This document shows, in pieces, positions 19,767 to 24,106 of a DNA stretch of 32,357 bases. The DNA lies in NCBI RefSeq assembly GCF_000455285.1, contig NZ_HG005292.1, positions 125,029-157,385 of the forward strand. The letters are read 5' to 3'. Numbering within the stretch: the first letter of the stretch is position 1; each line of letters opens with the position of its first letter. Made by a program: the position numbers and the translations under genes. This stretch comes from Candidatus Stoquefichus massiliensis AP9. GTDB taxonomy: Bacteria > Bacillota_I > Bacilli_A > Erysipelotrichales > Coprobacillaceae. The notes beneath the pieces are model-generated. The model did no database searches. It was not told the DNA's origin and was given only the letters and a program-made list of their open reading frames with translations.

Positions 19767-19795
19767 TTGACTTTCCATAATATTTTCATCATACT
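19767..19795 (+). promoter_or_regulatory. Promoter of the mgtE leader
   Basis: TTGACT (19767-19772), 17 bases, CATACT (19790-19795). Transcription would start near 19802, giving a leader of about 97 bases before mgtE. Confidence 0.55.
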
Positions 19796-19814
19796 TTTAT
19801 TGAAAAAGAAAGGA

Positions 19815-19894
19815 TGTGAGATTATGAATAAAGGCAAGCCGAAACCGAATATTACTGATCTCACAAATGTGAGATCTTCTTAAAAGAGGAGGTC
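19815..19894 (+). promoter_or_regulatory. Putative translation attenuator in the mgtE leader
   Basis: Three pairings compete. H0: TGTGAGAT (19815-19822) with ATCTCACA (19858-19865). H1: GATCTCAC (19857-19864), loop AAAT, GTGAGATC (19869-19876), perfect. H2: GATCTTCTT (19873-19881), loop AAAA, GAGGAGGTC (19886-19894), nine pairs of which three are G-U, burying the mgtE Shine-Dalgarno AGGAGG (19887-19892). H1 excludes both H0 and H2. A 19-codon ORF runs through H0 and H1 and ends at the base of the H2 loop. The sequence relations are direct observations; the regulatory role is inferred. Confidence 0.6.
19824..19883 (+). CDS. Candidate 19-residue leader peptide upstream of mgtE
   Basis: A short ORF, MNKGKPKPNITDLTNVRSS, with AAAGGATG about nine bases before its ATG and its TAA 15 bases before the mgtE start. 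Both prolines use CCG, a codon not seen in mgtE itself, where Pro is CCT or CCA; the nearby GGC and AAG are also unusual for this DNA. Leader peptides whose translation is slowed at prolines control Mg2+ transporter genes in enterobacteria (mgtL, mgtP). A similar logic here is inference. The frame is open upstream to 19611 but that lies before the predicted transcription start. It could also be a structured RNA rather than a translated peptide. Confidence 0.55.
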   Translation: MNKGKPKPNITDLTNVRSS

Positions 19895-19898
19895 TAAA

Positions 19899-21251
19899 AT
19901 GGAAAATAAAACACAAATTCAATTAGAAAAACTATTACAAGCTTTGGTTAAACATGATACGAAAGAAATTGATAATATTTATGGACATGTTCAACCAATT
20001 GATTTAGCTCTGGAAATAGAAGAATTAGAAGATAATCAGTTAGAATATTTATGTAACCACATTGATGATGAAAAATTAGCTGAAATATTAGAAGAATCTG
20101 ATGAAGAATTACAAACAGATATTATTGATTGTTTAGATAATCAAAGGATATTAAGATTATTTAATCATCTTCCTAAAGATATTATTGTTGATATTCTTGG
20201 TGAATTACCTATTGGAAAACGTAAACAGTTAATGACACTGATGAAAACAGATGATCAAAAAATTATAGAACAATTACTTGGTTATGCAGAAGACAGTGCT
20301 GGTGGTTTGATGACTACTGAATATATTGCATTAAATGATAGCTTAACAATGATTAATGTCCTCAAAAAAATTAAAGAAATAGGTCCTAAAACAGAAGTTA
20401 TAGAGACAATATTTGTTTTAAATCATAAAAAGCAATTAATTGGTACTGCTGATTTAAGAGATATATTAGTTTCTGATGAAGACACAACTTTAAGGGAAAT
20501 TATGGATGATCAGATTATATCTGTCTTTCCTGAAACAGACCAGGAAGAGGTTTCTTTACTAGTTTCTAAATATGATTTAGCAACAATACCTGTTGTTAAT
20601 AAAAATCAAGCACTACTTGGAATTATTACAGTTGATGATATTATTGATGTTATTCAAGAGGAACATACAGAAGATATGTTACAAATGCATGGTGTAAGTA
20701 AAGAAGAATCTTTAGATTCTACTTTATTTGAATCTATTCAAATGCGTTTACCTTGGTTAGTTGTTAATCTTGCTACTGCTTTTCTTGCTTCTTTCACAGT
20801 TAAAATGTTTGAAAGTACAATTGAACAAATCGTTGCTCTTTCAGCAACTATGACAATTGTTACTGGAATGGGCGGAAATGCTGGTAGTCAAACTTTATCA
20901 ATTATGATTCGAAGTATTGCTTTAGGAGAAGTTCATTTCAAAGATTGCTTTCCTGCATTGATTAAAGAAATATTATTAGGAATTATTAATGGTTTAGTGA
21001 CTGGTGTCATTACTGGTTTTATTGTTTATGTGCTTTATGGTAATTTTTATTTAGGTGTTATTATTTGTATTGCTATGATTGGTAATTTAGTTGTATCAGG
21101 ATTTTTTGGATTTGTTATTCCTGTTGTTTTAAAAGCATTACATGCTGATCCAGCTTTAGCATCATCTATTTTCTTAACGACTGCAACTGATGTTCTAGGG
21201 TTCTTTATCTTCTTAGAACTTGCTAATCTATTTTTACCATTCTTAGTTTAA
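19899..21251 (+). CDS. mgtE: Magnesium transporter MgtE
   Basis: A 450-residue homodimeric Mg2+ channel. The N domain is a superhelix (LEELEDNQLEYL-like repeats; EILEESDEELQTDIIDCL, DIIVDILGELP). It is followed by two CBS domains (about 135-255, ending TVDDIIDVIQEEHTEDML) and a membrane domain with five helices. The selectivity region is seen in TGMGGNAGSQTLSIMIR and the C-terminal ATDVLGFF, both conserved in MgtE. The acidic N and CBS domains close the pore when Mg2+ is plentiful (family knowledge). AGGAGG stands seven bases before the ATG but can be hidden in a hairpin. No M-box riboswitch was seen. It ends in a bidirectional terminator. Confidence 0.95.
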   Translation: MENKTQIQLEKLLQALVKHDTKEIDNIYGHVQPIDLALEIEELEDNQLEYLCNHIDDEKLAEILEESDEELQTDIIDCLDNQRILRLFNHLPKDIIVDILGELPIGKRKQLMTLMKTDDQKIIEQLLGYAEDSAGGLMTTEYIALNDSLTMINVLKKIKEIGPKTEVIETIFVLNHKKQLIGTADLRDILVSDEDTTLREIMDDQIISVFPETDQEEVSLLVSKYDLATIPVVNKNQALLGIITVDDIIDVIQEEHTEDMLQMHGVSKEESLDSTLFESIQMRLPWLVVNLATAFLASFTVKMFESTIEQIVALSATMTIVTGMGGNAGSQTLSIMIRSIALGEVHFKDCFPALIKEILLGIINGLVTGVITGFIVYVLYGNFYLGVIICIAMIGNLVVSGFFGFVIPVVLKALHADPALASSIFLTTATDVLGFFIFLELANLFLPFLV

Positions 21252-21271
21252 AACGATTATACATTGAAAGA

Positions 21272-21294
21272 GGGAGTTCAATTCTTGAACTCCC
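21272..21294. terminator. Bidirectional terminator between mgtE and the EAL gene
   Basis: GGGAGTTCAA (21272-21281), loop TTC, TTGAACTCCC (21285-21294), flanked by AAAG and TTTC. It includes the stop codon of the minus-strand gene. Confidence 0.8.
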
Positions 21295-24106
21295 TTTCAT
21301 CTATTTTAGTGGTTATTCCACAATAAATTTTTTGATTCTGTTCATCAACATAGTGAACAATATGCTGACATACTCTCACTTTTTCTCCTTGATTATTTAT
21401 ATATGAGTAAACAATATCAAACTGTTTATCCCAGTTTCTATAATTATTCATAATTGCAATAACTTGTTCTTGATCATCTTTGCAAATAATATCTAAAGCA
21501 TAATTCATTTCTATCATGTGGCTTAGTTCTTCATGACTATAACCCAAAGTATCTTTAAGCCCATAACTAAGTAATTGACATTCTAAGCTCTCTTCATTTA
21601 CATAGTATTTTATAATATTTCCTGGCATCGTATCCAAAATCATATGAAGTTCTTTTTCTCTTTTCATTTGTTCAGTATAATCACTCACAATACCATAATA
21701 AACTTTTCGATTTGGTTCTTTATGTAAAAAGAATAATTTCAAATGCATCCACATTATTTCTCCATTAAGACGGTATCTCCTAAAAGTTCCATATGCTCCT
21801 AAATGTCCTTTCTTTTGGGCACGTTTAAAAATATTTATAAAATAATCACGATCATCCTCATAAATCTGATTTATAATCGTTTCTGACTTCTCTTTTAAAT
21901 CAACAGGATTACATCCAGTAATATGATAATATCCATCATTAACACTCTTTACTGAAATATGATTTTGATCATCGACTTCGTAAATAGCAATTCCACCAAT
22001 AATATTATTCAATACTGATTCACTCGTAATATCCTTTTTAAATAAATCTTCAATTTGTAAAGTAGGCAATCCTTCAACCATAATATCTCTAGTGTCAACA
22101 TTTTGCTGATGTGAAAGTAGTTCATCAAAATCAAATGCTGGCATTGGTTTATAGAAATGGAATCCTTGCATATATTCACAATTCATATTCAAAAGATGTT
22201 TAACTTGTTCTTCTGTCTCTACTCCTTCAGCTATCAATCCCATCTTCAGCCACTTTGCCATCAAAATAGAAGACTCTAGTACACTCAATCCTTTATCAAG
22301 ACTATTTTCATCCATATCCAAAAACTTCATATCAAGTTTTAATACATCCACTTCAATATCTTTTAACATATTTAAAGCTGAATAACCACTTCCAAAATCA
22401 TCCATTAAAACTCTAAATCCATTTTTTCTTAATTCAGATATTGTTTCTATAAGTTTTACAAAATTATCACTATAGGCACTTTCCGTAATCTCTATTTCAA
22501 TATAACGTTTAGGAATTTGATATTGATCACACAAATCTTCAAATACTTTAAGAAGATTATACTGATAAATATCTAATCTTGATACATTGACAGATAAAGG
22601 AACAATGATTTGATTATTTTGAAGACGTTGATGAAGATATTGAGCAGTTTTTTCCCATACATAATAATCCAATTTATAAATAAATCCACTATTTTCTAAA
22701 ATAGGTATAAATGTATTTGGCATTAATAATCCTTTTGTAGGATGCATCCAGCGAACGAGTACTTCAGCACCAATAATTCTTTGTGTTCTAGCACTACATT
22801 GAGGCTGAAAATAAATTTCAAATTCATGATTATCTAATCCATTCTTCACACTAAATAAAATCTCTTGTTCGTTTTCAAGTTTTAATTTCATTGTTTCCTG
22901 AAACAAGGCAACTCTTTTGGCATAATTTCCTTTAATTGTATTTGCAGCCATAATCGCACGATCACACATTAACGTGATTGGTAATGATCTATTATCAATT
23001 GGATAAATTCCTGCAGCTGGCAAAAATTTATATTCAATATTATAGTTTTGAATCCAATCTACAATCTGATTTTCTACTTCTTCAATATGACAGTTATCAT
23101 AAGGAACTAAACACATAAAATCATCATTTCCCATACGAGCAGCAAAACCTTCACGTGAATTAACAAAATCTTGAATACAATTAGCAACATATATTAATAA
23201 ATTGTCTCCTTGATCTGTTCCATACCATTCATTAAATAATTTGAAATGTTCAATATCAATAGATATAATCGCATACTCTCTTTTATCCTGATATAAAACA
23301 TCTTTAACTATCTCTTGAAATGCACTTTCATTATAGAGAAAAGTTAATGGATCTATTTGTTGATGATAATTTTTATCAAAATGTCTATGTGCTCCATTAT
23401 AACGATCATCAACATTAACAGCATAACAAAGGTAACATTTTTCATGTTCATTTTTTTCTACAGGTTGTAAATATAGTGAAAAGTAATGATAATTATTATC
23501 TGACCTTAAAACTCTAAAATCTTCTACAACATGTCCCATGTTCTCAGTTCTATACTCTAATGTCTTTAAATCAAAGAATGAATAAAAACGTTTGACATCA
23601 TCAGGATATATATATTGTTGACTAAAACCTTTGACAAGTTCATCAATTGTTCCTTGATTTTTTATTTTAACTTGTGAACCATCATTACATAGATATTGAT
23701 ATGTTTGAGAACTAAGATCTAATTCAACTAGTTCATCGTAATGCTGACTTTGATTTATATTTAAAAAGACTCTATGATTTTCATCATTAATAGGATGCAT
23801 TGCTACAAGAAGGCATTTCCCTTCATTAGGCCAATTCAATCTTAAAGTTGTACAATTATCCCAACCATGGTAAAGTTCATTATATTTTAAAATTGTTCTT
23901 GTTGATGCATCAGATTCTTTTAGGAATTCTAGCGGACAATCAGTGCATGGCTGTTTCCTATGACGTAGTAATTGATAACATATAGCATCTTTTTGAAGAC
24001 TAGGATATATTTCTTTTAGTCCTTCATCATAATATACAATTTTATATTGTTCATTAATAACATACACACCTTTGGTGGTAGAACGAATATTATTTTCTTT
24101 ATACAT
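21278..24106 (-). CDS. Cyclic di-GMP phosphodiesterase: PAS, degenerate GGDEF, EAL, two PAS domains
   Basis: A 942-residue cytoplasmic protein without membrane helices. An N-terminal PAS-like domain carries a Cys group (CYQLLRHRKQPCTDCPLEF), and a second sensory region follows. The GGDEF domain has GNDDF (326-330), so it is probably not a cyclase but may bind GTP. The EAL domain is complete: EVL (Glu448), NVSR (Asn507), EIEITES, DDFGSG (Asp569, Asp570), LKLD (Lys590), EGVE (Glu627) and QGFHFYKP (Gln647), so it should cleave c-di-GMP. Two PAS domains form the C-terminus (about 690-810, 820-940), an unusual place. The ATG at 24106 follows GAGGGATAGTACT. It sits behind the ATP-grasp cassette but a terminator separates them. 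Confidence 0.92.
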   Translation of the reverse strand: MYKENNIRSTTKGVYVINEQYKIVYYDEGLKEIYPSLQKDAICYQLLRHRKQPCTDCPLEFLKESDASTRTILKYNELYHGWDNCTTLRLNWPNEGKCLLVAMHPINDENHRVFLNINQSQHYDELVELDLSSQTYQYLCNDGSQVKIKNQGTIDELVKGFSQQYIYPDDVKRFYSFFDLKTLEYRTENMGHVVEDFRVLRSDNNYHYFSLYLQPVEKNEHEKCYLCYAVNVDDRYNGAHRHFDKNYHQQIDPLTFLYNESAFQEIVKDVLYQDKREYAIISIDIEHFKLFNEWYGTDQGDNLLIYVANCIQDFVNSREGFAARMGNDDFMCLVPYDNCHIEEVENQIVDWIQNYNIEYKFLPAAGIYPIDNRSLPITLMCDRAIMAANTIKGNYAKRVALFQETMKLKLENEQEILFSVKNGLDNHEFEIYFQPQCSARTQRIIGAEVLVRWMHPTKGLLMPNTFIPILENSGFIYKLDYYVWEKTAQYLHQRLQNNQIIVPLSVNVSRLDIYQYNLLKVFEDLCDQYQIPKRYIEIEITESAYSDNFVKLIETISELRKNGFRVLMDDFGSGYSALNMLKDIEVDVLKLDMKFLDMDENSLDKGLSVLESSILMAKWLKMGLIAEGVETEEQVKHLLNMNCEYMQGFHFYKPMPAFDFDELLSHQQNVDTRDIMVEGLPTLQIEDLFKKDITSESVLNNIIGGIAIYEVDDQNHISVKSVNDGYYHITGCNPVDLKEKSETIINQIYEDDRDYFINIFKRAQKKGHLGAYGTFRRYRLNGEIMWMHLKLFFLHKEPNRKVYYGIVSDYTEQMKREKELHMILDTMPGNIIKYYVNEESLECQLLSYGLKDTLGYSHEELSHMIEMNYALDIICKDDQEQVIAIMNNYRNWDKQFDIVYSYINNQGEKVRVCQHIVHYVDEQNQKIYCGITTKIDEREFKN

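Follow-up and report, generated by a model that had tools for sequence, protein, structure and literature searches.

A candidate leader-peptide switch upstream of the magnesium transporter gene mgtE in Candidatus Stoquefichus massiliensis and its relatives

The window, a 32,357-nucleotide stretch of the Candidatus Stoquefichus massiliensis AP9 genome, carries an mgtE gene encoding a Mg2+ transporter in which the N, CBS and membrane domains are all present, according to Pfam (Table 1). The position of a TTGACT-17-CATACT element suggests a transcript start near 19802, and counting from this likely start the 5′ leader of mgtE is ~97 nt long. Similar elements (TTGACT or TTGACA together with a CATACT-like sequence) lie in the same place upstream of the leader at three related loci (L003, L004 and L007). 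Within the leader there is a predicted short ORF with a TAA stop codon at 19881–19883, its end lying 15 nt upstream of mgtE. The sequence around its ribosome site, GAAAGGATGTGAGATTAT, does not vary across the four leaders of this type.

Folding of the leader RNA was computed to give three stems: H0 (19815–19824 with 19856–19865, −13.8 kcal/mol), H1 (19857–19864 with 19869–19876, −11.8 kcal/mol) and H2 (19872–19881 with 19886–19895, −11.2 kcal/mol), the last of which covers the AGGAGG of mgtE at 19887–19892. The stretch ATGTGAGAT (19867–19875) is a direct repeat of arm 1. The leader has a folding z of −4.36, and none of 200 dinucleotide shuffles folded equally well. According to these computations, stems 1:2 and 3:4 are mutually exclusive with 2:3, and 3:4 hides the mgtE ribosome site, which is the arrangement of an attenuator. 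An earlier note, made from the sequence alone, had described a 19-codon ORF with its own ribosome site, competing stems and a hairpin over the AGGAGG of mgtE; all three were recovered here, with its arm coordinates right to within one or two bases.

Table 1 Features of mgtE and its leader in the window
Feature	Position	Strand	Basis or remark
Candidate promoter TTGACT-17-CATACT	19767..19795	+	consensus scan 9/12; consensus match only
Ribosome site AAAGG of leader ORF	19809..19813	+	sequence; ends 10 nt before leader ATG
Arm 1 (H0 5′ side), between leader ribosome site and start codon	19815..19824	+	pairs with 19856–19865
19-codon leader ORF MNKGKPKPNITDLTNVRSS (predicted)	19824..19883	+	sequence; frame kept in L003, L004, L007
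Codons 6–8 CCG AAA CCG (Pro-Lys-Pro)	19839..19847	+	codon usage, relatives, tRNA search
Arm 2 TGATCTCACA (H0 3′ side, H1 5′ side)	19856..19865	+	pairs with arm 1 or arm 3
Arm 3	19869..19881	+	19869–19876, H1 3′ side; 19872–19881, anti-Shine-Dalgarno side of H2
Arm 4, mgtE ribosome site AGGAGG (19887–19892) paired in H2	19886..19895	+	exposure energy varies with ribosome position
mgtE, Mg2+ transporter, 450 aa	19899..21251	+	Pfam MgtE_N, CBS and MgtE above cut-offs
Candidate terminator 3′ of mgtE	21269..21297	+	terminator-like hairpin, 13 pairs

The M-box riboswitch, which the same note had reported missing, is indeed absent: an Rfam search of the window gave no match, and the gathering score of the M-box (RF00380) was not reached in the window or anywhere in the genome. 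Searches of 17 related loci and of 11 leaders likewise gave no Rfam RNA, M-box or other, and a search of the plasmid collection gave no match. Our search of the open-access literature found no Firmicute mgtE leader peptide, and a named mgtE riboswitch candidate has been reported only from Thioalkalivibrio (PMC11109978).

We modelled the free energy for exposing the mgtE Shine-Dalgarno sequence, both for the leader without a ribosome and for a ribosome placed on each codon of the leader ORF in turn, using a model that folds only the RNA downstream of the ribosome footprint and ignores kinetics, later ribosomes and co-transcriptional folding. Exposure is predicted to cost 8.9 kcal/mol in the free leader RNA, 2.6–3.0 kcal/mol with a ribosome at codons 1–6, 5.4 kcal/mol at codon 7 and 9.0–9.6 kcal/mol at codons 8–12. 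From codon 14 onward the modelled cost is ~1 kcal/mol with H2 melted, the ribosome itself then nearing the mgtE site. This OFF-ON-OFF profile is robust to footprint size, a shorter footprint extending the ON state to codon 7. Expressed as a switch (OFF-ON-OFF) index, it reaches 6.3. Sixty shuffles of the leader body gave no more than 2.75 (0/60 reach the native value), and a control set of 182 ordinary genes with free space upstream, taken from the window and from 31 genome stretches belonging to the order, stayed at or below 2.85. Among mgtE genes lacking a recognised leader, one of 56 exceeded an index of 3.5 (4.76, with one of two assumed start positions). The modelled index, lying beyond all 60 shuffles and all 182 genes, supports the previous suggestion that the state of the switch depends on ribosome position.

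We propose that in the free RNA H0 and H2 would form together, H2 hiding the mgtE ribosome site (OFF). With a ribosome on the initial leader codons, arm 1 would be blocked, arm 2 would then take arm 3 to form H1, and the mgtE site would open (ON); on moving past codon 7 the ribosome would melt H1, allowing H2 to re-form (OFF). Ribosomes held or repeatedly aborted within the first 6 or 7 codons would in this way raise mgtE translation. The hold-up could arise from pausing at Lys-Pro-Lys-Pro with its rare proline codons and, in relatives, from early Asp, Glu or Pro residues, and the most likely signal would be low Mg2+, by making ribosomes unstable or slowing the decoding of proline. Comparative evidence from sequence and modelling strongly suggests that the leader is a ribosome-controlled translational switch. 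We consider it fairly probable that it acts as a translational attenuator of mgtE, in which early pausing or drop-off turns the gene on, presumably at low Mg2+. From the anatomy, conservation and model behaviour of the leader, we infer that the ORF is translated and that the switch operates in cells.

The same type of leader precedes mgtE in G001, G019 and G014 (loci L003, L004 and L007), making four genomes from three genera in all. Arms 1 and 2 are nearly invariant across these four leaders, while the remainder is variable. In the model, L003 and L004 have the same OFF-ON-OFF profile as the window leader (0/60 shuffles each), and the switch of L007 is weaker, with an index of 1.4 that 4/60 shuffles reach. 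L007 has a spacer between arms 1 and 2 that is one base shorter, and its start codon is shifted too, the frame being held through DLT..RSS; retention of the frame despite the shorter spacer is evidence that the leader ORF is translated. At the next relatives, L005 and L006 (MgtE 77–78% identical), the leader ORF is absent. These two loci have, within 100 nt before mgtE and just after a candidate promoter, a simple 5′ hairpin (CCGGATRTTG...CAATATCMGG) with compensating base differences.

A second set of leaders, group B (‘EDHLPP’), is unrelated in sequence to the window leader and gave 13 strong covariance-model matches in five genera, all of them before mgtE. Group B arms, as seen for example in L025, L061, L063, L070 and L073, are AGGTGGTAAATG (arm 1), GAGGATCATTTACCACC (arm 2) and AAATGATCCTCC (arm 3, anti-Shine-Dalgarno), and the peptides have (E/Q)DH(L/I/V)P(P/L) in common, a motif that largely reflects arm 2. 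Most members are OFF-ON-OFF in the model, with 0/60 shuffles reaching the index of the five just named; L027 and L034 are weak (3/60 reach), and L154 and L161, matches from outside the model-building set, have the same profile. The reading frame is conserved over three spacer lengths. Covariation in the stems, proposed in the earlier note as a check, was seen in part: the four window-type sequences, whose stems barely vary, gave none, and group B has compensatory changes, with 97% of cells paired vs 42–63% in slid controls. A third unrelated sequence, L018 (a GTG start, then EGDNSKQSILPESS...), shares the modelled profile (0/60 shuffles), and the MPD(A/P)SQ leaders L075–L077 are predicted to have a similar but weaker switch, ON at codons 1–6. 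These last peptides, starting MPDASQ or MPDPSQ, are much like MgtL (MEPDPTP) in composition.

The three-state profile was absent from the modelled leaders of groups C, D and H and of L059, and our claim of a shared RNA switch does not extend to them. Weak covariance-model matches (~1e-4 to 1e-3; L162–L164 and L169–L171) lie beside unrelated genes and were discarded, and a class-wide search returned, at the cut-off used, one similar mgtE outside the order. Counting strong ribosome sites only, a short leader ORF lies near the start in 24 of 89 mgtE upstream regions, which include close relatives and thus are not 89 independent cases, vs 9 of 182 other genes.

Other arrangements also occur before mgtE. 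The second mgtE of the same genome (L091/L137; G000, contig C7, near 152700–153200) has a leader ORF, MFYSNNDVPEPLS..., overlapping the start of mgtE; its modelled folding lacks the three-state profile, so overlap may be its mode instead. Its relatives (L036, L088, L089 and L093–L095) have NDVPEP in common, with a long stem over the start of the leader ORF itself and 5′ bases pairing in the region where mgtE starts. At L016/L017 the region ~128 to 57 nt upstream of mgtE contains a leader ORF, MDKTDSVPRSSYNTLLLRA(C/Y)LY, and large hairpins follow its stop codon. Here the mgtE ribosome site is hidden at nearly all modelled ribosome positions, and a different mechanism would therefore be needed.

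The original proposal placed the sensor in the CCG codons of the leader. CCG is rare in this genome (26 of 528 Pro codons; 1.43 per 1000 codons, with CCC at 1.04 per 1000), where the sole tRNA-Pro found has the anticodon UGG. Conservation of the KPKP codons held in L003 and L004, which keep KGKPKP with one synonymous change (codon 6 CCG to CCC, giving CCC AAA CCG at codons 6–8, CCC still being a rare proline codon), and failed in L007 (G014). The L007 peptide, MDGEQNSNIIDLTILRSSY, starts MDGEQNSN and is acidic, with no proline, no KPKP and no lysine; the window leader is basic near its start, not acidic, with prolines at positions 6 and 8, whose codons fall outside the stems. In the model, the OFF edge has been reached or passed by the time a ribosome stands at the second proline (codon 8), the ON state covering codons 1–6 (to 7 with a shorter footprint). 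A sensor made of CCG codons, which are not conserved as such and are absent from L007, is weakened by these observations. The single proline codon of mgtQ–mgtB acted only via base pairing and its acidic residues via translation (PMC8092293), which advises further caution about giving the CCG codons a sensing role. In mgtL, on the other hand, the alternating prolines have an effect (PMC6460261), and TrmD, a tRNA methyltransferase that depends on Mg2+, can link Pro codons to Mg2+ (PMC6335274).

As a group, the mgtE leader ORFs across the order have early Asp, Glu and Pro as a common peptide feature. Over the ten residues after the start, D/E/P make up 28%, vs 12% in genome proteins and 10% in control ORFs, in a comparison based on 18 representative leader ORFs picked after viewing, so that its p-values are optimistic. 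By analogy with MgtL and MgtQ, this feature points to early ribosome drop-off or pausing.

The M-box is present in 32 of 316 genomes of the order, and in three of them (G011, G023 and G029) it precedes one mgtE copy while a group B leader precedes a neighbouring copy ~2.6 kb away. Since M-box and leader stand at the same kind of gene, the leader may also answer to Mg2+; this is the best comparative argument for the signal, and low Mg2+ is likely to be what the mgtE leader senses. At L136 (G029, contig C34, 13600–18051) two mgtE genes adjoin, one with an M-box and the other with an EDHLPP leader ORF. At L044/L135 (G178, contig C3, 256573–256957), where mgtE is 61% identical to that of the window, an M-box lies ~220–380 nt upstream, with a short ORF (MEASVPDRR...) between it and mgtE; L059 has a similar ORF (MDASVPER...). 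M-box and leader ORF at L044/L135 may be two stacked devices. For the order Erysipelotrichales as a whole, we regard as an evenly balanced proposition that sequence-unrelated leader-peptide switches before mgtE sense Mg2+ via ribosome destabilisation or pausing, replacing the M-box or standing beside it.

An attenuator of the same build could instead sense a signal other than Mg2+, for instance how much charged tRNA-Pro or tRNA-Lys is available, how active EF-P is, or translation stress in general. This would suit KPKP with rare Pro codons in a genome where a single tRNA-Pro was found, and in Salmonella the mgtP and mgtL leaders likewise respond to Pro-tRNA or EF-P (PMC6460261, PMC8092293). 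However, the L007 leader has neither Pro nor Lys, the other leader types have early D/E/P in common and not one amino acid, and the regulated gene is always mgtE, alternating with the M-box, which makes such a signal unlikely. More doubtful still, and in our view improbable, is that the short ORF senses nothing and serves just for translational coupling with mgtE or for holding the leader open. The 15-nt distance from the ORF end to mgtE and the melting of H2 by modelled ribosomes at codons 14 and later would fit coupling, yet coupling needs no H1, while H1 and re-closing at codons 8–12 recur in unrelated sequences; in Salmonella mgtQ–mgtB, the transporter falls with more leader translation (PMC8092293).

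The palindrome GATCTCACAAATGTGAGATC, a perfect inverted repeat lying shortly after the promoter, might be a transcription-factor operator in the DNA, with RNA pairing as a by-product. We think this very improbable: GATCTCACAAATGTGAGATC occurs once exactly in the 3.5-Mb genome and has no one-mismatch copy there, an operator leaves arm 1 and the pairing of the ribosome site unexplained, and in groups B and E the RNA design persists although the sequences differ. Transcription attenuation by intrinsic or Rho-dependent termination in the leader, the latter being controlled by leader translation in enterobacterial mgtA (PMC11282234), is the least credible reading of all, given a leader of this length in which no terminator-like (intrinsic) site was found and H2 sits exactly on the ribosome site.

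Ribosome stability or speed has been described as a Mg2+ sensor for the enterobacterial mgtA and mgtB leaders. If a Mg2+-sensing translational attenuator is the right reading in gut Firmicutes, one design built from different peptides and RNA sequences would be a general solution and not an enterobacterial peculiarity, and ribosome-based Mg2+ sensing, on a translational platform, would have emerged more than once outside Proteobacteria. A switch of a type known from Salmonella magnesium genes would then occur in a phylum for which the open literature we searched held no description of one. It would offer a testable answer to how Mg2+ uptake is controlled in Firmicutes lacking an M-box, and M-box and leader-type mgtE side by side in one genome make a direct comparison possible within the order.

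Among known systems, the M-box (ykoK leader, RF00380) likewise precedes mgtE in this order, and in some genomes a leader-type mgtE copy accompanies it, but it is a 169-position RNA that binds Mg2+ directly and is absent from this genome. In erm-type attenuation of Firmicutes, ribosome position in a leader ORF selects between stems and frees a hidden Shine-Dalgarno sequence; there the signal is a macrolide, and gene, peptide and sequence are unrelated to those of the window leader.

Salmonella mgtQ–mgtB, whose 1:2/3:4 vs 2:3 logic has been proven by mutation, resembles the window leader in its short ORF with its own ribosome site, in stems 1:2 and 3:4 opposed to 2:3, in 3:4 hiding the ribosome site of a Mg2+ transporter, in 2:3 being slightly more stable than 3:4, and in early slow or aborted translation turning the transporter on, as we propose for the window leader (PMC8092293). 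It differs in being an 8-aa ORF of the Gram-negative mgtCBR operon upstream of a P-type ATPase. Arm 1 lies inside the ORF in mgtQ and before the start codon in the window leader, and acidic D2 and E5 stand against Lys-Pro-Lys-Pro, with no sequence relation seen. Enterobacterial MgtL of mgtA (PMC11282234, PMC6460261, PMC6335274) also places a short peptide ahead of a gene for Mg2+ transport, with prolines that come early and alternate: at 3, 5, 7 and 9 in MgtL, at 6 and 8 in the window leader, and in relatives within MKPEPN, MPDPS and NDVPEP; MgtL works through Rho-dependent transcription termination, whereas the window leader, with no terminator seen, would hide a ribosome site. Ribosomes drop off at the EPDP of E. 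coli MgtL at low Mg2+ (PMC11282234), and MKPEPN, MPDPSQ and NDVPEP in leaders of the order resemble this motif. Related genomes support the earlier idea that the window leader is a Firmicute equivalent of the Mg2+ leader peptides known from enterobacteria.
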